Positions 26,980 to 64,000 of a stretch of DNA of 64,000 bases are shown here, one piece after another. The stretch is taken from positions 6,076,001-6,140,000 of the forward strand of contig NZ_JBBOCA010000001.1 in the NCBI RefSeq assembly GCF_038002225.1, given 5' to 3'. Numbering within the stretch: position 1 is the stretch's first letter; each line of letters begins with the position of its first letter. The DNA is from Paenibacillus sp. FSL R7-0204 (GTDB lineage Bacteria; Bacillota; Bacilli; Paenibacillales; Paenibacillaceae). The notes under the pieces were generated by a model, which ran no database searches, was not told where the DNA came from, and saw nothing but the letters and a program-made list of their open reading frames with translations. The position numbers and the translations under genes are program-made.

Positions 26980-27007
26980 AAAGGCCATCCCCAAAGGGAT
27001 GGCCTTT
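26980..27007 (+). terminator. Intrinsic terminator after the SLH amidase
   Basis: Stem AAAGGCCATCCC / GGGATGGCCTTT (26980-26991 and 26996-27007) with a 4-nt loop. The A/T ends make it usable on both strands, so it may also end the biosynthetic operon coming from the right. Confidence 0.8.
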
Positions 27008-53915: not shown

Positions 53916-56900
53916 CTATTTAAACAAGTAATCCAAATCCTCGCCGGGTAACCCCGCTGTTTCAAACAACTCGTGCCCCGGCGCCATTTCAACAGAAGAA
54001 TATTGCGCGGCCAAAGCCAGTAGACGCTCCTTATAATTAGCCGCCAGCTGTTCCGCATCAGGAATGCCATATGTGATCAATTCGATTTGCAATTTACGTT
54101 CCATCACCATAATATTGATCTCTAAGTTAACTGTAGGGGCATTATTCCTGCCGGTTTTTTTCCCGAAAGAACCTTCGATGATTAAAAAATCGTTATAGTT
54201 TGCAGAAATCTCTCCCAGATAATTGAACAATATTGCCGGGTGACGTTGCGGTGAGAACTTTCCTGCTCCATATCCTGTGCCATGACGGGGAACAGCATTA
54301 AGCCTCTTTTGTGTATCAATGATTGCCGTCTCACCTTCCATACAGGTTCGCAGCATCATCGGATACATTCCGGTGAACCAGCCAACAGTGCGTGCAACGT
54401 TCATATCTCCGGTAATTTCATGCCTGCCATGATTCTCTAGCATCAACCACAGATCGGCGTAATTTGTACGCTGGCCCATTTCCTCACCCAGTATTGCCAT
54501 AAAAACAGCCTGGGGCTCTATGCTCAAGGCAGCCGGTACTGCATGAATTAAGCGCTCTGTAGTCTCCTCATCCATTATCAGAGTTAAGCTTCTGTACGTA
54601 TCCTGAGAAATCGGTTGCTTATGAGTCAACAGCCAAGGGTGAGAAGCATTCAACTGGTCAACAATATCCATCCAGTAATCATTTTCCTCTTGGGTACACC
54701 GGTAATTTTGAAGGAGCTCTGACCATCTGCTATAAGAGTCCGTCCGGGGCGGCATGCTTCTCGCATCAACCAGCCGTTTGGACTCATGGCTTAGTAAGCT
54801 CTGGAGATCATCCAGCAATATCCGCCATGATACACCGTCCACAACGAGATGGTGAGCAAATATTACGATTCTTGTTGTGTCGGGACTCAATTGGAAGGCG
54901 ATGGCTTGAAACAGCAAATCTTCGGTGATGCTCACTCTTGACATACATTCGTCAACATATTCTGTTATTTTCTCAATCTGACGGCTCCCAAGCTCAGAAC
55001 TCATATCCACCATGTCAACCCATTTGTCCCGTTGCAGATGAAGCTCGTTGTAGAATAATTGCTTACGCACCGGATCATAATTCATGCGCAATTCATCATG
55101 ATGAATGATTAAACGCCGGAACACCCGGTTAAGCGCTGCTGCTGGCCTGTTCTTTAACTCAAGCGCCAGTGTGTGGAAATAATAATTTTTATCAAGGAGC
55201 GGCTGACTAAAAAACCATGAAATGGAAGGCGTTTGATGAATGTAGCCCTTCAGCGGCGGCTGCAATGGGGCCGCCTGTAGCGCCACGGCCTTGCCCACCA
55301 TATCATCCAGATGAGGAAAAGTCAGAATATCCGTCACCTTCAGATAAATCTCTTTCTCATATAGTCTGGAAGATAACTGCAGCGCCTTGATGGAGTCCCC
55401 CCCTAATTTGAAGAAATGATCTGAAAATCCGATTTCACTGTTATGAAATAAGCGCCGGATTTCTTCTAAAATGTCCCCCTGCGCCCCGCCGTAATCGGTA
55501 GGCTTGTCTATTTGCCTGATTTTGAAAGAGGGCGGGGGAAGCTTACTTTTGTCGATTTTACCGTTTGCATTTATCGGAAGGGCCTCCACAGTCACAAACC
55601 CACTGGGAATCATATACTGCGGCAAATGTGCTTCCATCGCTGAGAACAAAAATTCATCCGTAACAGCACCATCTTTAACCACATATGCGTATATGTGTTT
55701 GGTATCACCATGTTGAACAACAGTCGCTACAGATGCTTCTATACCGTCCAAGCTGTTCAGCAAGCCTTCAATTTCCCCCAATTCAATACGGTATCCCCTG
55801 ATTTTCACCTGCTCATCTATTCGGCCGCCGTATTCCATGATCATTTCGGGCAGAAGCCGTCCCACATCACCCGTTCTGTACAACCTGCTTCCCTCATGGA
55901 ATGGATGGGCAATGAATTTCTCTGCAGTTAACTCTTGGCGGTTCATATATCCTTCGGCCAGTCCTGCACCAGCAACACAAATTTCCCCTTCCGCTCCAAA
56001 AGGCAGCAAATTCTGAGCTGAATCCAGCACATACACCTGCATATTCGAAATTGGTCTTCCGATGGGAACAGAGAGACCGATGTCTAGTTCTGGATTAAAT
56101 TTGTGAATCATACAGCCTACCGTCGCCTCTGTTGGCCCATATTCATTATAAATTGAGAGCGAGCGTCTGAATTTATTTACTATCCTGCAGGCCAGACCTG
56201 CTCTCAGGTCTTCTCCCCCCACAACCATTATCTTCAGAGATCGCTCAATCCTATCATGCAGGGGCAAGTCTTCAATCACCGATAGATGAGAAGGAGTCAG
56301 CTTAATAATTGAGAAATCCCCGTCCCGCCAGGCTTCTAGAAGAGCTGCCCCGGAATCGCCGCCACGAAATACCTTTATGGTGCCGCCGCATATCAGCGGA
56401 GTAAAGATGGAGGTGATTGTCAGATCAAAGGCCAATGACGAATATAAAGGGAAGACCGGTTCAGCTTCTTGCACATAGGTCTCCTGTGCAAACCTGACAT
56501 AGTGTGCCAGTGCACCCTCGGATACCGCTACCCCTTTTGGCTGCCCGCTTGTGCCTGAAGTATAGAGAATATAAGCCAGGGGCTCTGAATTATTGATGTG
56601 TGCAATTCCGGCCCCGCCGCCGCATCTCCAGAGTTCAAGACTGCCCACTGTCGTTTCATATCCGAAATCACCCGGGGGAAGGACCGCAGGGTCCGAGACA
56701 ATGCAATATTGCGCCCCTGCATCCTCAAGAATAAATTTAATCCTTTCGGAAGGAGTTTCCGGTTCAATGGGTATATATGTTCCCTTAGCTTTTAAAACAG
56801 CAAGCATAGCAACAATACACTCTGCACTTCTGGGGAGTACCAGAGCCACTATCGGATATGTGCTTTGAGCACTATTGAGCAGATGCTCCAGCAGCTTGTT

Positions 56901-58388
56901 TGCATTTAAATTCAGTTCCGCGTAACTGAGCCGCTCTTCTTGATCGATTACCGCAATCCTGCTGGGAGTCCGTTCTGCCTGTTTTTCAAATAAAGAGATA
57001 ACGGTGTCCGGCGGGCTATGGACTGCGGTATCATTATAAGCATACAAAATCTTCTGTCTCTGAGACTCGTCAAGGACCCCTATTTCTCCAATGCTCCTTC
57101 CGGCATTTGCTATTATATCCCGGAGAAGTGCCCGGAGACTTAACGCCATGTTCTCAATAATTGATTCATTGAAAATACTGGTCCAGTAATCAATTTCAAG
57201 AGTAATTGTATCCCTGTCGTTCCATTCTTTCGCAATGAACTGTAAGGGAAGAAGTTGCTGCCCGCTGTGAAATTCATGATTTTCAATATTGATTCCAGCT
57301 ATCTGGTTTACAAGTGAGGTACTGTAACAGTTAATTGCACATTGAAAGATCGGGAGACCGTCCCTTTCTTTGTTCGACAGCTTTACCAGTTCATCTTGAG
57401 GAAATTTCCGGTGGATCAGCCCTTTCTGGTAAATACTCCGGCAATGCCGTATAAATTCAAAAACAGCCTGCTGATTGCAGACTTTGATTCTAAACGGCAT
57501 TATTTTAGTGCACATAGAAAAACTTTGCTTGTGGCGTCTACCCACTCTATTCATTACTGGCATATTTACGAGCAGTTCAGAACATTGATAATATTTGCTT
57601 ATTAGGATGACACATGCGGCTTGAATTACATCATTAAGCGTGAACTCATGGGTGTTTATAAATTGCCGTAATTGTGTTACCAAATCTCCTTTGAGTACAG
57701 TGATGTGACGCTTCCCGTTAAAAGCACCTGATGCAGGCTGCCTGATCATTGGCTCAGGTAAATTTTCCATTACCCCCTGCCAATATTCCATGTCTTTCAG
57801 AAAGCGTCCAGAGGCCAGATATTTTTGCTCTTCCCGCAAATACTCAGCATAGCTGGCGGACAAGGTGTTAACCTCAGATGCCGGCATTCCGTTAGATAAA
57901 CGATTATATTCGCTGCAAATAGATGCTGTCATAATCTCCATGGACCATCCGTCAGCTATCAAATGATGCAGTTTTACGAAATATCCCCATTGCTGTTCAT
58001 TAAGTTGCAGGACATAAAACTCAAACAAAGGGCTGTCCACCAAGCTAAACGGTTTTGCGGCCTGTTCTTCGGTCCAGTCCTTGAAAGCTAGTTCAGGATT
58101 TTTTTTCTCACTAAAATTCACAAATGAGGGGGGAAGCAGAGCATTGCTTGCCTCATATTGTTTGGGCAGATTCCCCTCCTTACAAAATTGATAACGCACA
58201 CCCTCATGGCTTTGTAAAAAATGCAGAATGCTTTTCTGAAGATAACCAGGATGAATCATCCCTTTGAAAATGACCGTGCCCCCAAGATTATAAATGGAAG
58301 TTCCCGGGTACATTTCTTCCGTATACCAGATCTGCTTTTGGGCGTCGGTTAAATCGAGTAATGCAGCATGATTATCTCTGGAATGCAT
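53916..58388 (-). CDS. NRPS starter module C-A(Asn)-PCP-E
   Basis: A 1490-residue single-module synthetase. I choose ATG 58388 (MHSRDNHAAL) with AAAGGAG 9 nt upstream; the upstream extension runs through a terminator hairpin. Domains: C (HHLIADGWS ~143), A (YTSGTSGQPKG ~610, NEYGPTE ~748), PCP (GGDSI ~997), E (HHLVVDG ~1181, NHGRHE, RTVGWFTGMYP). Read by eye against GrsA, the specificity residues are D-L-T-K-V-G-E-V, which matches the asparagine code apart from a Val for Ile. A C-A(Asn)-PCP-E start therefore predicts an N-acyl-D-Asn cap, as in zwittermicin, colibactin and xenocoumacin prodrugs. It is the first gene behind the LoaP leader. Confidence 0.9.
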   Translation of the reverse strand: MHSRDNHAALLDLTDAQKQIWYTEEMYPGTSIYNLGGTVIFKGMIHPGYLQKSILHFLQSHEGVRYQFCKEGNLPKQYEASNALLPPSFVNFSEKKNPELAFKDWTEEQAAKPFSLVDSPLFEFYVLQLNEQQWGYFVKLHHLIADGWSMEIMTASICSEYNRLSNGMPASEVNTLSASYAEYLREEQKYLASGRFLKDMEYWQGVMENLPEPMIRQPASGAFNGKRHITVLKGDLVTQLRQFINTHEFTLNDVIQAACVILISKYYQCSELLVNMPVMNRVGRRHKQSFSMCTKIMPFRIKVCNQQAVFEFIRHCRSIYQKGLIHRKFPQDELVKLSNKERDGLPIFQCAINCYSTSLVNQIAGINIENHEFHSGQQLLPLQFIAKEWNDRDTITLEIDYWTSIFNESIIENMALSLRALLRDIIANAGRSIGEIGVLDESQRQKILYAYNDTAVHSPPDTVISLFEKQAERTPSRIAVIDQEERLSYAELNLNANKLLEHLLNSAQSTYPIVALVLPRSAECIVAMLAVLKAKGTYIPIEPETPSERIKFILEDAGAQYCIVSDPAVLPPGDFGYETTVGSLELWRCGGGAGIAHINNSEPLAYILYTSGTSGQPKGVAVSEGALAHYVRFAQETYVQEAEPVFPLYSSLAFDLTITSIFTPLICGGTIKVFRGGDSGAALLEAWRDGDFSIIKLTPSHLSVIEDLPLHDRIERSLKIMVVGGEDLRAGLACRIVNKFRRSLSIYNEYGPTEATVGCMIHKFNPELDIGLSVPIGRPISNMQVYVLDSAQNLLPFGAEGEICVAGAGLAEGYMNRQELTAEKFIAHPFHEGSRLYRTGDVGRLLPEMIMEYGGRIDEQVKIRGYRIELGEIEGLLNSLDGIEASVATVVQHGDTKHIYAYVVKDGAVTDEFLFSAMEAHLPQYMIPSGFVTVEALPINANGKIDKSKLPPPSFKIRQIDKPTDYGGAQGDILEEIRRLFHNSEIGFSDHFFKLGGDSIKALQLSSRLYEKEIYLKVTDILTFPHLDDMVGKAVALQAAPLQPPLKGYIHQTPSISWFFSQPLLDKNYYFHTLALELKNRPAAALNRVFRRLIIHHDELRMNYDPVRKQLFYNELHLQRDKWVDMVDMSSELGSRQIEKITEYVDECMSRVSITEDLLFQAIAFQLSPDTTRIVIFAHHLVVDGVSWRILLDDLQSLLSHESKRLVDARSMPPRTDSYSRWSELLQNYRCTQEENDYWMDIVDQLNASHPWLLTHKQPISQDTYRSLTLIMDEETTERLIHAVPAALSIEPQAVFMAILGEEMGQRTNYADLWLMLENHGRHEITGDMNVARTVGWFTGMYPMMLRTCMEGETAIIDTQKRLNAVPRHGTGYGAGKFSPQRHPAILFNYLGEISANYNDFLIIEGSFGKKTGRNNAPTVNLEINIMVMERKLQIELITYGIPDAEQLAANYKERLLALAAQYSSVEMAPGHELFETAGLPGEDLDYLFK

Positions 58389-58416
58389 TTCTCTGGTCTC
58401 CTTTCTTCTTTTCAAA

Positions 58417-58446
58417 TAAAAAATGCGCCTCAGGAAGAGTCGCATC
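58417..58446 (-). terminator. Leader terminator in front of the NRPS operon
   Basis: On the minus strand GATGCGACTC (58446-58437) pairs with GAGGCGCAT (58431-58423) with one A-G mismatch and a 5-nt loop, followed by TTTTTATTT. It ends only 28 nt before the NRPS start codon and 188 nt after the ACP stop. A terminator directly before a 30-kb operon and directly after a LoaP gene suggests controlled read-through. Confidence 0.75.
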
Positions 58447-58508
58447 ATCAAAAATAATTAATTTTTTATTATATATTGAAATATAAGTGCACATAGCTTC
58501 GCCATGCC

Positions 58509-58528
58509 TGCGTATATTACTATACACA
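58509..58528 (-). promoter_or_regulatory. Candidate LoaP-responsive RNA hairpin (GUAA tetraloop)
   Basis: On the minus strand arms TGTGTATA (58528-58521) and TATACGCA (58516-58509) form 8 bp, including one G-U pair, closed by GTAA, a GNRA-type tetraloop. It lies in the transcribed leader between the ACP gene and the leader terminator, about 60 nt before the terminator stem. LoaP of Bacillus velezensis binds an RNA hairpin in the leader of its target operon, so this is a candidate for the same role. The rest of the 58447-58633 leader is AT-rich without a gene. Confidence 0.45.
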
Positions 58529-58633
58529 TGTTAAGAAAAATTCAAAAACATAATAATTAACTTGCCGAAACAAAGATTAATTATAATATGTTTTTTTGTG
58601 TGAGAAACGGCACTCTATAATAGACCTTTATCC

Positions 58634-58891
58634 TCAATGGCCACTAGCAGTATTACAGTCACTATAGGACTCTATGAATTGTACTAAAGCATCCACCGTT
58701 GGAATCTTTTCCAATGAAAGAAATTCGTCAGGAAATTCAAAATTGAATTCTTCCTCGATAGAAACAATCGCTTTGATAAACGTAATTGAATTAAGGCCGT
58801 TTGCACTTAGGACGTTAACTATATTGGCTTCTTTGGGATTTTCAAGCACTTCATTAATAATTGTCTTGATTCTCCCTCTTGTATTGTCCAT
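58634..58891 (-). CDS. Stand-alone acyl carrier protein 2
   Basis: An 85-residue carrier protein. ATG 58891 has AGGAGG 6 nt upstream. The phosphopantetheine attachment Ser lies in ANGLNSITFIKA near residue 35, in the usual G-x-(D/N)-S-(I/L) context, and the helix after it (IEEEFNFEFPDE) is typical of type II ACPs. It starts right after loaP, so the two share a transcript, and it precedes the leader of the NRPS. It may carry the acyl starter for the N-terminal C domain, or a glyceryl/oxygenated unit from the FkbH-like enzyme. Confidence 0.85.
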   Translation of the reverse strand: MDNTRGRIKTIINEVLENPKEANIVNVLSANGLNSITFIKAIVSIEEEFNFEFPDEFLSLEKIPTVDALVQFIESYSDCNTASGH

Positions 58892-58916
58892 GTTAGTCCT
58901 CCTACTATCCGCTTGT

Positions 58917-59468
58917 TCATATAGGGCTAGATTCAAATTCTATACCTAAATCAATTATTTTACTGGCGCCCATAAACTCAAAGTTAATCTTCGCTCTTCT
59001 ATGCCGTTTGTCCAGCTTGGTAATTCTACTTTCCTTTCCTTTTAGAGGTCCGGATAATATGTATAACTGATTATCGACAAAAACAGCCTTGGACAGTTCA
59101 ATGATATCTTCCCCATTAATTAGCTCCAAGATGGGCTCGATTTCGCCTACGGGGACACATTTAAAATAATCTCCCTCACTGGCCTCTTCTCTGCAATGTA
59201 TTCTCTTATCTTTTTCATTACAATAATCAAGAATTTTAAAAACGCCATATATTGAATTAATACCGGTGTACTTGTCAGCATCCATGTTGATGTAAACGAA
59301 TACATAACCAGGGAACATGATTCTTGTTACTTCTCTAAAGACCCCCTCCTTCTTCTCATGAATTTTCCGTTTGGGTATACAACAATGCAAATAATCCAAC
59401 TGCTTGTATAATTGTGTTCTAACCTGTTCCTCTCTCCCTGTCTGGACATAAACTGCATACCATTTCAA
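58917..59468 (-). CDS. loaP: LoaP-type specialised NusG paralogue (processive antiterminator)
   Basis: A 183-residue protein of the NusG/RfaH superfamily. The NGN domain (about 1-110) starts MKWYAVYVQTGREEQVR and contains IMFPGYVFVYI; the KOW domain (about 128-178) contains VFVDNQLYILSGPLKGKES and KINFEF. LoaP proteins bind RNA polymerase and a leader hairpin and let transcription pass terminators inside long antibiotic operons; in Bacillus velezensis they control difficidin and macrolactin. Here it has its own promoter and lies just before a leader with a terminator and hairpin, in front of the NRPS/PKS operon. It is thus the likely pathway switch. A housekeeping NusG is excluded by position and by its divergence. 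Confidence 0.88.
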   Translation of the reverse strand: MKWYAVYVQTGREEQVRTQLYKQLDYLHCCIPKRKIHEKKEGVFREVTRIMFPGYVFVYINMDADKYTGINSIYGVFKILDYCNEKDKRIHCREEASEGDYFKCVPVGEIEPILELINGEDIIELSKAVFVDNQLYILSGPLKGKESRITKLDKRHRRAKINFEFMGASKIIDLGIEFESSPI

Positions 59469-59545
59469 GATGGTTATCCCCCATAGAAGTTTTGTAGTAT
59501 CCTCTTAACAAAAGAGAATAGGTGCATATAGTAAAAATAAAGTAA

Positions 59546-59573
59546 ATTATATTATTAATGATAATATATTCAA
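59546..59573 (-). promoter_or_regulatory. Promoter of loaP
   Basis: On the minus strand TTGAAT (59573-59568) and TATAAT (59551-59546) are spaced 16 bp apart, about 80 nt before the loaP ATG. The 252-bp gap 59469-59720 is very AT-rich. A weak stem (GATCTT ... AAGATC) followed by TTTTTTT about 40 nt after the FkbH-like gene may end the upstream transcript. So loaP can be switched on independently of the extender-unit genes. Confidence 0.55.
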
Positions 59574-59720: not shown

Positions 59721-60803
59721 TCAAACATCCGCATCGCGTTGGACCTGGTCATGAGGTAAGAACGGACTTTCGCTAATCAGCGACATGTAGGCTGGAGGAT
59801 TCTGGAGCTGTGCCTTATCATGTTCAAGAATAATCAGATCTCCATACCGCTCCAGTTCCTTAAAGCCGGCAAATAGATAGGTAAACTTCATCATCCGGTT
59901 GTACTCTGTAGGGACAAACTCAGCACGCAGGGTTACGCCCGCATCCTTAGCCAGAGCAGCGACATAATTCAGCAGCACACTTCCAATTCCTCTTGACATA
60001 ACCCGGCAAGACATTAACAAAAGCTTAAGCGTCCATACATTCTCGTCCATTTCGAGGAGTGTAAGCCCAATTTTCCCGTATGACCCATATTTATCTTTCA
60101 AGTCCGACATGAACAGCAGATGCTGGGGGGATAGCCGGAATTGGTCCAATTCTTCATAGGAATAGGTGTAACCAGTGGCATTTAGTTGATGGGTCCTCAC
60201 CGTCAGCTCTTCCGCACGCTTTAAATCATCCTCCCGAACCGCTGCTACCGTGAGCTCCAACCCGAGTGAAGACAGAAATTCTTCATTGGAGCCAGCAAAT
60301 TTCTCCTCAATATGGTTCCGTATAATATCATTCCTGTAGAGCTGCCTGCGATTTTTGGAATCTGCAGTAATAAACAACGGGTTAAACTCGGCCATCCCAA
60401 GTAAGGAGTCCATCTCTACCGAGTCTATGCATAACACTTCCGGATGCTGAAAATTCACTTCCTCGCGCTCAAACGGCTGATCATCAATAAAAGCCATGGA
60501 TTCCCTACTGATATTAATTAAGGACCGAATATTCTCCACAGCAACAGACTTACTGTCCCAGCCGATTTGAGGATAGAGAAAAAATTCATCCAGGCCGAAT
60601 TGCTTTAACTTAGCCATCGCCATATCATGGTTATTCCGGCTGGCAATGGATTGCAATATTCCCCGTTCATCCAAAGTTTTAACTATTGCGGCAACTCCCT
60701 CACGGAGTAAAACTTCCCGGTCTTCTGACAGAATGCCGTGCCACAATGTATTGTCCAAATCCCAGACTAAACACTTGATTTTTCGGGCTCCCATCAGACT
60801 CAC
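59721..60803 (-). CDS. FkbH-like HAD-family glyceryl-ACP forming enzyme
   Basis: A 360-residue bifunctional enzyme that takes 1,3-bisphosphoglycerate, removes a phosphate and transfers the glyceryl group to an ACP. The HAD domain has the nucleophile motif VWDLDNTLWHG near residue 14-24 and the acidic motif FIDDQPFER near 100-108; the C-terminal half (about 190-320) looks like a GNAT-type domain (RVMSRGIGSVLLNYV). The GTG start overlaps the stop of the acyl-CoA dehydrogenase gene by 4 bases. With the ACP and two dehydrogenases it makes the hydroxymalonyl-ACP (or, after methylation, methoxymalonyl-ACP) extender. Confidence 0.88.
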   Translation of the reverse strand: MSLMGARKIKCLVWDLDNTLWHGILSEDREVLLREGVAAIVKTLDERGILQSIASRNNHDMAMAKLKQFGLDEFFLYPQIGWDSKSVAVENIRSLINISRESMAFIDDQPFEREEVNFQHPEVLCIDSVEMDSLLGMAEFNPLFITADSKNRRQLYRNDIIRNHIEEKFAGSNEEFLSSLGLELTVAAVREDDLKRAEELTVRTHQLNATGYTYSYEELDQFRLSPQHLLFMSDLKDKYGSYGKIGLTLLEMDENVWTLKLLLMSCRVMSRGIGSVLLNYVAALAKDAGVTLRAEFVPTEYNRMMKFTYLFAGFKELERYGDLIILEHDKAQLQNPPAYMSLISESPFLPHDQVQRDADV

Positions 60804-61969
60804 GCACCTTCTCTCGACTTCCGCCGCAGGAGCCGTCTAACATTGACAATCTCCTGAGCAGCAATAAGTAATTCATGCATTTGTGTGGTTCCTTCGATAA
60901 TCTCGTTAATTTTTGCGTCGCGAAAATACCGTTCTACAGGGTAGCCCTCATGACAGCCATTGCCTCCATGAATCTGTACCGCATAATCGGCAGCCATAGT
61001 AACCATGGTCGAAGCGTAGTATTTAGCCGACCATGTCTCCATAATGCTGTCCGGGTCTCCTGTATCCTTCAGATATCCGGCCTTGAAGCACAGCAGCCTT
61101 GATGCCTTAAGTTGAACGGCAATCTCCGTGATCATCTTCTGAATAAGCTGATTTTCACGGATAGGCCGGCCGAATTGAACTCTCTTGCTCGCATAATCAA
61201 TAGATGCCTCCAGGCATGCCTGCGCTAGTCCGACACAACCCCAAGCTATTGTATATCGTCCATAATCCAGACTTGAAAGAGCAACATGTGAAAGTCCGGT
61301 ACCGATTTGCCCCAACAGATTCTGGGAAGGTATTCGGCAGTTCTCAAAGGATAATTCAGCAATCATTGAAGCCCGAGCTCCCAGCAGGCCGGACATGGGT
61401 TTCGTGTTAAACCCTTCCCGAAACCGCTCGACAATAAAGGCGGTCGGCTTGCCTTCACATTTGGCGAAGATCAAAAAGACATCAGCAATTTGTCCCATTG
61501 TTATCCAGCGTTTATGCCCATTTAATACATAGTCATCGCCGTCCCGGATAGCTGTCGTTTCGATGCTCTTGGCGTCGCTGCCGGCATTGGGTTCCGTGAG
61601 ACCAACGGCTCCTATCGCTTCGCCAGACGCGAACTTAGACAACCACTCCGCTTTTTGTGCATCTGTCCCCCAGCGCAGGATCGCTAAAGCTATCATTCCC
61701 TGAACAGTCAGCAGACTCCTAACGGACGAACAGGCCCGCCCAATCTCTTCATTTAATAATCCGGTTGTAATATTATCCAGACCCATACCTCCGTAATGTT
61801 TCGGCAACATGGAACCCAGATACCCTTTCTCTTTAAGGCTGCTCAGTGCATTCGGGTGAATCCGTTCCTCCTTGTCGTTGATCTCAGCGTATGGAAGCAC
61901 CTCCATATCAACAAATCTTTGAAACTCCTCTTGCCAATTCTGCTGCTCCACTGTTAATTCAAGCTTCAT
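60800..61969 (-). CDS. Acyl-CoA dehydrogenase-like enzyme of the extender-unit pathway
   Basis: A 389-residue FAD enzyme of the acyl-CoA dehydrogenase family (FkbI/ZmaE-like by context), proposed to act on a glyceryl-derived ACP thioester. Signatures: GAVGLTEPNAGSDAKS near residue 118-133, the flavin-binding YVLNGHKRWITMG, QIHGGNGCHEGYPVERYFRD near 335-354, and the catalytic-region Glu in IIEGTTQ. It lies between the ACP (21 bp away) and the FkbH-like gene (4-bp overlap), so all are one operon. Confidence 0.87.
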   Translation of the reverse strand: MKLELTVEQQNWQEEFQRFVDMEVLPYAEINDKEERIHPNALSSLKEKGYLGSMLPKHYGGMGLDNITTGLLNEEIGRACSSVRSLLTVQGMIALAILRWGTDAQKAEWLSKFASGEAIGAVGLTEPNAGSDAKSIETTAIRDGDDYVLNGHKRWITMGQIADVFLIFAKCEGKPTAFIVERFREGFNTKPMSGLLGARASMIAELSFENCRIPSQNLLGQIGTGLSHVALSSLDYGRYTIAWGCVGLAQACLEASIDYASKRVQFGRPIRENQLIQKMITEIAVQLKASRLLCFKAGYLKDTGDPDSIMETWSAKYYASTMVTMAADYAVQIHGGNGCHEGYPVERYFRDAKINEIIEGTTQMHELLIAAQEIVNVRRLLRRKSREGA

Positions 61970-61990
61970 CGTAATGGCCTCCCATGAGTT

Positions 61991-62227
61991 TTATAATGTC
62001 TTCATCTCAATCAGCTTGAGCATTCCATTAATTGTGCGGAAATTGTCCAAATCCATATCCGCATTGTCTATCCGGATGGAGAATTCCTTCTCCAGAAACA
62101 TCACAAGCTGCATGGCGAATAACGAATTGACAAAGCCTAGAGCAAAAATATCCTCCTCGTCCCCAAGCTCATATTTACGGAAAAAACGGGACAAAAATAA
62201 CCTGATCTTCACTTTGTTCTCTTCCAT
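61991..62227 (-). CDS. Stand-alone acyl carrier protein 1 for the extender unit
   Basis: A 78-residue carrier protein with its phosphopantetheine Ser in LGFVNSLFAMQLV near residue 35, in a G-F-V-N-S context known from FkbJ-type ACPs that hold glyceryl and methoxymalonyl units. AAGGGAG precedes the ATG. It sits between the 3-hydroxyacyl dehydrogenase and acyl-CoA dehydrogenase genes and should carry the glyceryl thioester while both enzymes oxidise it to hydroxymalonyl-ACP. Confidence 0.88.
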   Translation of the reverse strand: MEENKVKIRLFLSRFFRKYELGDEEDIFALGFVNSLFAMQLVMFLEKEFSIRIDNADMDLDNFRTINGMLKLIEMKTL

Positions 62228-62263
62228 TTAAGTATCTCCCTTTTTCTTATTGGATTAGCGGTA

Positions 62264-63112
62264 CTATACGTAATTGTAGAACCCGCGGCCGCTCTTGCGG
62301 CCAAGCAATCCTGCGTGCACCATCTTTTGCAATAATGGACAACAACGGAATTTTGAATCCTGGTAGCTTTCGTATAGTACCTTTAGAGAATGAACCACTG
62401 TGTCGAGACCAATCAAATCTGCAGTTTCCAGCGGTCCCATGGCATGTCCATAACATTTCTTGAAAATGTCGTCTATCTCTGAAGGTTCGGCTACTTGATC
62501 CTGAACCACAAAAGCGGCTTCATTCATAAATAGGTGGGAAATACGGTTAGAAACAAACCCCGGATAATCTTTCACTACAATTATGTCCTTGCCCATTCTG
62601 TCCATCAGCATCTCTACCGAAAGCACACAATTCTCCGATGTGTGGAAGCCGCGTATTACTTCGACCGTCTTCTTTGCTGGAACCGGATTCATAAAATGGG
62701 TTCCGATTACCCGATCCGCCCGCTGGGTCAAACCTGCGATTTGGGTAATAGAAATACAAGAGGTATTAACCATAAATATGCACTCTTCTGGGCAGATGCT
62801 GTCCAAACCACCATAAAGCTCCTTTTTTATCTCCCAATCCTCTGTAACATTCTCAATCACAAATTGCGTGTCAGCCAGCATCATTCTGTCGGTACTGAAT
62901 GCAATGCGCCCCATAACAGTATCTGCATCCTCAAACTGCTGCCCGTTGCCGAACAAGGCACGAAAACGCAGGTTGTTCTCGATCTCTTTGCTGCAGCTCT
63001 CCAGCCGCTCTTCATCAATATCAATTGCTACTACCGGCAGACCCGCTTGTGCCAAAGTTTGTGCTACCCCGGTACCCATAATCCCTAAACCAACTACACC
63101 GATCTTCATCAT
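62264..63112 (-). CDS. 3-hydroxyacyl-CoA dehydrogenase-like enzyme of the extender-unit pathway
   Basis: A 282-residue NAD(P)-dependent dehydrogenase. The nucleotide-binding glycine motif is GVVGLGIMGTG at residues 5-15, followed by the acidic residue in VVAIDIDEERL. The catalytic His lies in GTHFMNPVPAKKTVEV, and the C-terminal substrate domain carries GHAMGPLETADLIGLD. GGGGGG precedes the ATG. In FkbK/ZmaG-type pathways this enzyme oxidises glyceryl-ACP at the terminal hydroxyl; neighbours support the same role here. Confidence 0.88.
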   Translation of the reverse strand: MMKIGVVGLGIMGTGVAQTLAQAGLPVVAIDIDEERLESCSKEIENNLRFRALFGNGQQFEDADTVMGRIAFSTDRMMLADTQFVIENVTEDWEIKKELYGGLDSICPEECIFMVNTSCISITQIAGLTQRADRVIGTHFMNPVPAKKTVEVIRGFHTSENCVLSVEMLMDRMGKDIIVVKDYPGFVSNRISHLFMNEAAFVVQDQVAEPSEIDDIFKKCYGHAMGPLETADLIGLDTVVHSLKVLYESYQDSKFRCCPLLQKMVHAGLLGRKSGRGFYNYV

Positions 63113-63126
63113 GTAATCCCCCCACG

Positions 63127-64000
63127 TTATACAGAAGATAATTTATCCAGACAGACTCTTTCAAGTTCAATGATTTTTGCAATATTCTCTGTAAAAAAAC
63201 CTGTACATAAGCTAATGGAACTGCCCGAGAAAAGATTCTTTGCGACTTTCGCTCTTATCGCTTTCCAGAGGTTCAGTATATCCTCTACAATCTTTACTTC
63301 ATCTTGGCTGGAGCCAAACAAAAGTTTTATCCGGTACAGTTCCACTTGCTTCACATTAACTAAGGTATTAAGACCTTCAAGAACCTGATCATTTGCCATC
63401 AATTTTCTAGAATTTTCATCACAAAGATACTCCTCCAGCTCCATGATTCCCTTGGCGATGGCTTCTCTGCCAGTAAGGTAACTCCTCTTTAATTCATTAA
63501 TTTGATAATCCGGTTCTGAAAGAGCAGCCCTTTCTCCAGTTCCGCTTAAATAATATTCATAATAGGAATACTCATCAAAGAAATTCGTGAAATTTTCAAG
63601 ATAACCGTTATAGGCTCGGGTTACCTCCTCAAAGGAAACCTTTTTTTTGTCATAGGCCAAATTGTCCCGTAGAGGATGTTCGATTATATGAAATACTTGT
63701 TCTTCTTCGTTATATCCGTAAATTAGCCAAGTATGGGGCAGATGTGTTGTCTCGTACAAATCCTTTCTTATAGAAGCATAATAACAATCAATCCAGAGGA
63801 TAACCGGATTCCCCTTTTGGATTGCCTTCATAGCATCTGGGATGATCTTCTCACTTTTAGATTTTGCATGAAATTCAATCCCGGTATGCTGCAACAGAAG
63901 ACTGTTAGACTGCCTTGGAAGATATCGGGCTTCTGGCCATACTCCGTCTTCCTTGCGCTGAATCTGGTATACAATCAAGTCATTCAGTAGGAAGGGAATG
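63127..64000 (-). CDS. BtrH_N-like protein, copy 3, N-terminus beyond the window
   Basis: The frame runs from the stop at 63127 to the right edge without a start, so the N-terminal part is missing (291 codons visible). Near the edge it has PVILWIDCYYASIRKD followed by HLPHTWLIYGYNEEE, the most canonical BtrH_N block of the three copies in the cluster. By family knowledge BtrH moves an acyl group from a carrier protein to an amine. It is 14 bp upstream of the dehydrogenase gene and therefore the first visible gene of the extender-unit operon. It is less AT-rich than copies 1 and 2. Confidence 0.68.
   Translation of the reverse strand, partial: IPFLLNDLIVYQIQRKEDGVWPEARYLPRQSNSLLLQHTGIEFHAKSKSEKIIPDAMKAIQKGNPVILWIDCYYASIRKDLYETTHLPHTWLIYGYNEEEQVFHIIEHPLRDNLAYDKKKVSFEEVTRAYNGYLENFTNFFDEYSYYEYYLSGTGERAALSEPDYQINELKRSYLTGREAIAKGIMELEEYLCDENSRKLMANDQVLEGLNTLVNVKQVELYRIKLLFGSSQDEVKIVEDILNLWKAIRAKVAKNLFSGSSISLCTGFFTENIAKIIELERVCLDKLSSV

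Follow-up and report, generated by a model that had tools for sequence, protein, structure and literature searches.

Introduction

Processive antitermination by LoaP has been described for Bacillus velezensis, in which two LoaP operons, dfn and mln, are reported (PMC12691694, mBio 2025). The published system combines LoaP with a UNCG-loop RNA hairpin in the leader as its target and an intrinsic terminator in front of a huge synthase operon, with loaP located beside a target. Here, we compare this system with a locus of Paenibacillus sp. FSL R7-0204 in a stretch of 64,000 nucleotides (the window; contig NZ_JBBOCA010000001.1, positions 6,076,001 to 6,140,000). On the minus strand, loaP is followed by an acyl carrier protein gene (acp) and then by a 245-nt gap that reaches to the ATG at 58388 of a non-ribosomal peptide synthetase (NRPS) gene, just as a sequence-only reading of the window had laid out. 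We are fairly confident that these 245 nt form an internal LoaP control leader, serving as a midway checkpoint in a ~73-kb cluster for a trans-acting acyltransferase polyketide synthase (trans-AT PKS) and NRPS. While LoaP, the UNCG-type hairpin and the terminator are shared with dfn and mln, the window leader lies inside a cluster, behind loaP and acp, and holds the second of two LoaP boxes; moreover, its box carries U-A where G-C is otherwise invariant, and its downstream module has diverged.

In Enterobacteria, the NusG paralog RfaH acts together with ops, a 12-nt GG...TG motif with TG at positions 11 and 12, in which C3 pairs with G8 in a hairpin of the non-template DNA (PMC5995543). LoaP is a NusG paralog as well, and the window leader contains a 12-mer of the same outline, with TG at the same positions and a possible C3-closed mini-hairpin in the non-template DNA; this is a likeness of sequence. 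In contrast to RfaH, LoaP uses an RNA hairpin, and the centre of the motif is a GAA loop in the window and GGTA in ops. The only binding of LoaP reported for single-stranded DNA from upstream of the dfn hairpin is non-specific and of low affinity (PMC12691694). Lambda N/boxB likewise uses an RNA hairpin to recruit an antiterminator to the polymerase (PMC12691694), but both the protein family and the RNA are different.

LoaP and its predicted RNA target

The window protein reached 179 bits with the LoaP model NF033641 (cut-off 125) and scored under the cut-offs of the NusG, UpxY and RfaH models (RfaH model TIGR01955: 38.9 bits at a cut-off of 144.5). It is the one match in the genome over the NF033641 cut-off; a single further, lower match was taken for the housekeeping NusG. 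Among 200 relatives, 44 encode a LoaP over the cut-off. Residues E40, R41 and I143 of B. velezensis LoaP have been mutated to stop hairpin recognition (PMC12691694). The window LoaP keeps E40 and I143 and carries lysine in place of R41, a residue that is also common at this position among the other LoaPs of alignment A1.

The genes and hairpins at the core of the comparison are the following (R1 is the box model described below):

58917 to 59468, minus strand: loaP, specialised NusG paralog of 183 amino acids with a TTG start (NF033641)
58634 to 58891, minus strand: acp, free-standing acyl carrier protein (PF00550, 33.7 bits, scored on a longer open reading frame (ORF)); the ATG start was picked by eye, the mechanical ORF extends to 58936
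58556 to 58581, minus strand: LoaP box, UUCG-loop hairpin with two single-nucleotide bulges (R1, 32.2 bits)
58544 to 58595, minus strand: box with outer helix (AAAAACAUA / UAUGUUUUU), from folding and an arm-swap test
53916 to 58388, minus strand: first NRPS gene after the internal leader, with condensation, adenylation and carrier domains
G000:C1:6175616-6175641 (L183 5117-5142), minus strand: head-of-cluster LoaP box before a radical-SAM gene (R1, 35.9 bits)

We read the LoaP hairpin as UUCAAUCGCUGU-UUCG-GCACGUUGAA in L062, the leader next to loaP of B. velezensis. The window box, AUUAAUCUUUGU-UUCG-GCAAGUUAAU, has the loop and both bulges in common with it and differs by the replacement of one internal G-C by U-A. 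A 56-nt segment comprising the hairpin and the outer helix folded with a z-score of -4.2, which was equalled by 1 of 200 shuffles. From its sequence, the LoaP-recruiting element of the leader is most likely this UUCG box, instead of a GUAA-loop hairpin further downstream. The sequence-only reading had recognised a layout for processive antitermination and assigned recruitment to the GUAA hairpin; a LoaP-controlled leader is strongly supported by the sequence, but the UUCG box is the likelier anchor.

Such an outer helix is seen in many leaders. In 45 distinct leaders, the two arms had a mean pairing score of 13.4, compared to 8.99 (standard deviation 0.44, 500 swaps) when arms were exchanged between leaders, and 31 of the 45 scored at least 12, where 8.2 would be expected on swapped flanks. 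The helix is CCUAUU/AAUAGG in dfn and weaker in mln (score 10). As reported for this system, deletion of the 10 nt before the dfn hairpin abolishes activity, and mln is without a similar sequence (PMC12691694). If the hairpin start is placed right, these 10 nt would be one arm of the outer helix, which would explain both observations and offers a structural reason for the so far unexplained deletion effect.

A covariance model of the LoaP box

A shape scan for hairpins with two bulges (score threshold 18) was applied to 80 loaP loci from named genomes and was positive in 49 of them, compared to 3 of the 80 reversed sequences. The loop of the best hairpin lay less than 700 nt from loaP in 46 of the 49 loci; by position, 25 of all 49 were upstream on the opposite strand, 18 downstream and 6 upstream on the same strand. 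After removal of L040 (4 kb away) and the near-duplicates L042, L060, L063, L066 and L076, the remaining 43 loaP-linked hairpins (alignment A2) were used to build R1, a sequence-plus-structure model that picks LoaP targets from genomes; the window box and the head box were left out. The pairs of A2 covary, with 53 cells changed on both sides and 17.9 in shuffles. Changes on both sides affected 5 pairs, a count reached by 10 of 500 shuffles, and the other measures were reached by 0 to 5. The scan that selected the A2 boxes had scored the very pairs later counted, so the 98 percent pairing in A2 is partly built in.

All genome scans with R1 and with the module model R2 (see below) scored the best first-look candidates, namely 150 in the own genome, B. 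velezensis and B. siamensis, 38 in the survey of 200 relatives and 19 in that of 392 genomes, and the resulting counts are lower bounds. Among the best 150 of 4510 candidates in the 7.7-Mb genome, the head of the cluster ranked first (35.9 bits) and the window leader second (32.2 bits; expectation value (E) 4.3e-9 in the window and 5.2e-7 genome-wide). A third match (22.6 bits) lies within folD and was rejected. In B. velezensis, R1 found two matches at E<=1, as many as the operons published for this species, one adjoining loaP and one elsewhere. Both precede a gene of the trans-acting acyltransferase/PfaD type, and we take these genes for dfnA and mlnA; the match beside loaP belongs to the training set of R1, the other does not.

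At E<=1e-4, at least 37 of the 200 relatives had an R1 match. The 44 genomes with LoaP account for 36 of these (Fisher p 1e-30, from a 2x2 table compiled by hand from the two surveys), and the 37th, G047, contains a LoaP-like fragment. Many of the 36 genomes belong to species whose boxes trained R1; the rate of matches without LoaP (1 of 156) is independent of this overlap. In a wider survey of the order, at least 55 of 392 genomes were positive at E<=1e-5. Neither the window nor the loci of B. velezensis and B. siamensis had a match in Rfam at gathering level. A plain search for UNCG hairpins with unbroken stems was uninformative, because it disallowed the two bulges.

Beyond these genomes, R1 found no full box in 52 loci of viral contigs with NusG-like genes and one partial match (E 0.019). 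Five of these contigs (L113, L116, L118, L121 and L125) have a UNCG hairpin of similar shape less than ~50 nt behind the NusG-like gene, which R1 does not recognise; possibly, these are other LoaP-RNA pairs. No box was seen in the spirochaete LoaP loci L090, L099 and L101-L111, and the RNA target of these LoaPs, if any, must differ from the box. In G152, a LoaP box (L230, G152:C34:429862-429887) precedes an acyltransferase gene on a contig without LoaP match. The two loaP genes of this genome are on other contigs, which makes LoaP targets beyond the neighbouring operon likely.

Two boxes in one cluster

The head box and the window box are on the same strand of the same cluster, 41,060 bp apart. 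The cluster runs ~35 kb past the window end, with large same-strand PKS and NRPS ORFs up to the radical-SAM gene (the long ORF adjoining this gene remained without domain typing), and it is of the trans-AT PKS/NRPS type with a total of ~73 kb. Thus, loaP sits among secondary-metabolite genes and, because the cluster continues on the same strand beyond the window end, is not its first gene. Since a better-scoring box is present at the cluster head ~41 kb upstream, the window leader looks like an internal, second LoaP checkpoint, judged by its sequence. The sequence-only reading, in which LoaP from the two leading genes opens the ~30 kb that follow, was therefore incomplete: loaP and acp are located in the middle of the cluster, and the head has its own box. 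Behind the head box follows a strong hairpin with a poor U run. This box also has an exchange from C-G to U-A, next to the pair that is exchanged in the window box. Hence, both boxes of the cluster differ at pairs that are nearly invariant in the training boxes, which may reflect co-evolution with the LoaP of this cluster.

The arrangement recurs in related genomes. In a sister cluster in G096, 41,018 bp separate the two boxes, and the leader is nearly identical, with the box, the spacing and the terminator stem kept. In four further genomes (G156, G186, G274 and G300), another box on the same strand follows at a distance of 40 kb; as these internal boxes score alike (33.5 bits), the four probably share one cluster. 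Three of these genomes, G156, G186 and G274, carry the internal box between two long ORFs of its strand that are separated by ~250-295 nt; loaP is found at the head box only, and R2 gives a weak match at the internal box (18.5 bits). PKS domains flank the internal box of G274 on both sides. A terminator behind the internal box is strong in G186 (-14.0 kcal/mol) and visible by eye in G156. Shorter distances between same-strand boxes occur in G308 (12.3 kb) and G219 (2.5 kb). Altogether, at least 8 of the 55 box-positive genomes, representing about four kinds of cluster, have same-strand boxes less than 50 kb apart on one contig, a lower bound given that genomes are fragmented. In G219 (L234), a box with the second module precedes loaP itself and the second box precedes the next large gene; the loaP arrangement could possibly be a self-feeding loop.

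The second module and the pause-like element

Downstream of the box, the leader contains three further elements:

58509 to 58528, minus strand: GUAA stem-loop, by position P2 of the second module (from folding; identical in G096)
58492 to 58503, minus strand: pause-like or ops-like 12-mer GGCGAAGCTATG (predicted RNA 3' end at 58493; R2 match)
58417 to 58446, minus strand: intrinsic terminator of the leader (-10.7 kcal/mol; stem kept in G096)

Many LoaP leaders have a second module composed of GUAGUG, a stem-loop (P2) and CAUGAANGGGCGAAGCUAUGCC. R2 detected it at E<=0.1 in 31 of the 80 loci, 26 of them training loci, and also in the leaders of G219 and G308, which are outside the training set and show the same spacing behind the box. 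The P2 stem covaries in alignment A4 (40 cells changed on both sides, 12.0 in shuffles, reached by 0 of 500) and in A3 (43 compared to 12.9). In A4, 7 pairs had changes on both sides, which 55 of 500 shuffles reached, and the other measures were reached by 0 to 5. The rows of both alignments were chosen for holding the module, and both the P2 pairs and the 12-mer pattern had been recognised in the alignment by the time they were counted; A3 includes the window and L183, and A4 omits these two together with L033 and L034.

The 8-bp GUAA hairpin is present exactly where the sequence-only reading had placed it, but a 54-nt segment holding it was near chance in stability (z-score -1.7, equalled by 12 of 200 shuffles). 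By its position, 5 nt before GGCGAAGCTATG as in the relatives, it is the P2 stem-loop of the second module, in a copy without GUAGUG that matches weakly (R2: 16.5 bits over 58489-58521, E 0.011 in the window and 1.36 genome-wide). The covariance search around this hairpin in other loaP loci, which had been suggested together with its prediction, returned a covarying P2 stem and a poor match of the window copy. Among relatives, the stem-loop at this place varies in sequence, length and loop.

The end of the module resembles a pause site in sequence. G at -10 combined with TG across -1/+1, which is the consensus of elemental pauses, occurs in 26 of the 30 rows of A3. The strict pattern GG-x-GNA-x'-C-NN-TG stands 53-64 nt behind 16 of the 43 training boxes, where its frequency across these loci would predict 0.03; the pattern had been framed with the module already in view. 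The window 12-mer is located 53 nt behind its box. Loops of the GNA or GNNA type are found in 22 of the 30 rows, which had been chosen for having the module, and dfn keeps the pause letters without the mini-hairpin. The two-pair mini-hairpin of the non-template strand shows little covariation on its own (2 cells) and is not predicted as stable by DNA folding parameters. We retain the idea because GCGAAGC DNA (Tm 78 °C) and GNA/GNNA loops are published as a class of stable mini-hairpins (PMC4686876) and such loops recur in A3. A long-range pairing between columns 74-76 and 117-119 of A3 was rejected; its score was reached by 16 of 500 shuffles, with one both-sided change.

In dfn, a polymerase pause about half way between hairpin and terminator helps antitermination (PMC12691694). 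In our reading of the same leader, the second module ends ~70 nt behind the box and the terminator stem starts ~170 nt behind it. Identity of the module with the mapped pause is a prediction and cannot be claimed. A module of 30.5 bits outside the training set was seen near loaP in Pelosinus (L079 4351-4393, minus strand), with no recognisable box. In L041, L058, L089 and L230, the usual place of the second module is taken by a very strong terminator, beginning ~38-42 nt behind the box.

Terminators behind the boxes

As the sequence-only reading had stated, a terminator occupies 58417-58446 and leaves 28 nt to the NRPS start codon. Its fold was equalled by none of 200 shuffles (z-score -3.6). 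A simple terminator scan did not list it, probably because the stem holds a mismatch. Of 48 boxes, a set that includes the window and some related leaders, 30 (the window box among them) have a terminator in the 300 nt that follow, compared to 65 of 400 random 300-nt stretches. Terminators inside the clusters were more frequent in sense (44) than in antisense orientation (27); we rejected this contrast as evidence because it is too weak, the loci overlap and they reach past the cluster ends.

Discussion

Taken together, the elements of the leader are present, conserved and associated with loaP, with covariation across the leaders, and these sequence features make LoaP control of the cluster very likely. 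In the proposed mechanism, LoaP would bind the UUCG hairpin (58556-58581), clamped by the outer helix, on its emergence from RNA polymerase. About 53 nt further on, the 12-mer (58492-58503) would slow the polymerase and the LoaP-RNA complex would load. LoaP would then counter NusA, so that the polymerase could pass the terminator (58417-58446) and continue through the NRPS genes and the remaining cluster. The internal leader would repeat the action of the head leader 41 kb later. For LoaP binding, NusA antagonism and read-through, we argue by analogy to the published dfn work; the sequence suggests a role for the pause-like 12-mer, a single operon transcript and re-arming.

If LoaP were instead recruited by the GUAA hairpin (58509-58528), one would rely on a structure that does exist, that the box and the terminator flank and that is identical in G096. 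Its stability near chance and its changing sequence, length and loop in relatives argue against this role, and so does the published LoaP RNA, which is a UNCG hairpin (PMC12691694), with a hairpin of dfn architecture present 27 nt upstream of the GUAA hairpin. We regard the GUAA hairpin as a very unlikely anchor. An alternative without LoaP action at this site is that the terminator ends an independent loaP-acp transcript, the NRPS genes have their own promoter and the box is a relic. The terminator is indeed there, and promoter-like sites are found in the region at chance level; however, just 28 nt separate the terminator from the NRPS start codon, G096 has kept the box, the spacing and the terminator stem, and terminators follow boxes above chance. 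This makes the explanation quite improbable.

A different objection accepts the LoaP mechanism and disputes the midway role only: the box may work with LoaP, but the 41-kb spacing would be a by-product of the fusion of two LoaP operons, not a means of re-arming. The location of loaP and acp at the junction would fit, as would the distances of 41, 40, 12 and 2.5 kb between same-strand boxes in different clusters, which indicate no fixed distance. On the other hand, the internal boxes of G156, G186 and G274 lie in short gaps between long same-strand ORFs, with loaP at the head box only, and PKS domains are present on both sides of the box in G274. We consider fusion rather unlikely, although it deserves weight, and prefer the reading of the window leader as a midway checkpoint.

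Several observations weigh against this reading. The window LoaP has lysine at residue R41, and its box has U-A where the pair is G-C in 42 of 42 distinct training rows. B. siamensis gave one R1 match and not two, and at the thresholds used 8 of the 44 LoaP genomes and 31 of the 80 loaP loci are without a box. The second module of the window is weak, with other places in the genome outscoring its R2 match. The head leader contains GGCGAAGCGTG by eye, with no R2 match at its own module, and the leader taken for mln has no module by eye; therefore, the second module cannot be essential. Finally, the terminator of the head leader, with its strong stem and poor U run, was missed by the terminator scan.

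As a wider and tentative proposal, for which we see a possible but less than even case in the sequences, LoaP leaders would be two-part sites of a LoaP-catching RNA hairpin and, 53-64 nt downstream, an ops-like pause with a possible GNA-loop mini-hairpin in its non-template DNA; LoaP and RfaH would share loading on non-template DNA, and internal copies in very long operons would serve for reloading. This link is concrete and testable and, if true, would connect LoaP and RfaH, which have so far been treated as different. One cluster can carry two LoaP boxes ~40 kb apart. Compared to the open-licence literature searched and the passages of one paper, a second box inside a cluster may be new, and so may the outer helix and the conserved module with its pause-like end.

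Further features of the locus

Two weaker features complete the locus:

59546 to 59573, minus strand: promoter-like site ascribed to loaP, unproven (chance frequency, -35 not conserved in G096)
26981 to 27006, minus strand: strong hairpin with a modest T run, 3' of the last same-strand gene (-20.1 kcal/mol), a possible end of the cluster

The first had been described as the promoter of loaP and acp. It agrees with the consensus at 10 of 12 letters, but sites of this quality occur in the region at chance frequency (7, with a mean of 6.8 in shuffles). The -35 hexamer TTGAAT is changed to TAGAAT in G096, where the -10 element is kept. Upstream of loaP, at 59721-63978, are genes of the FkbH type and for an acyl-CoA dehydrogenase and a hydroxyacyl-CoA dehydrogenase. 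Together with the nearby free acp (58634-58891), from which they are separated by loaP, they suggest a pathway for an ACP-bound extender unit.

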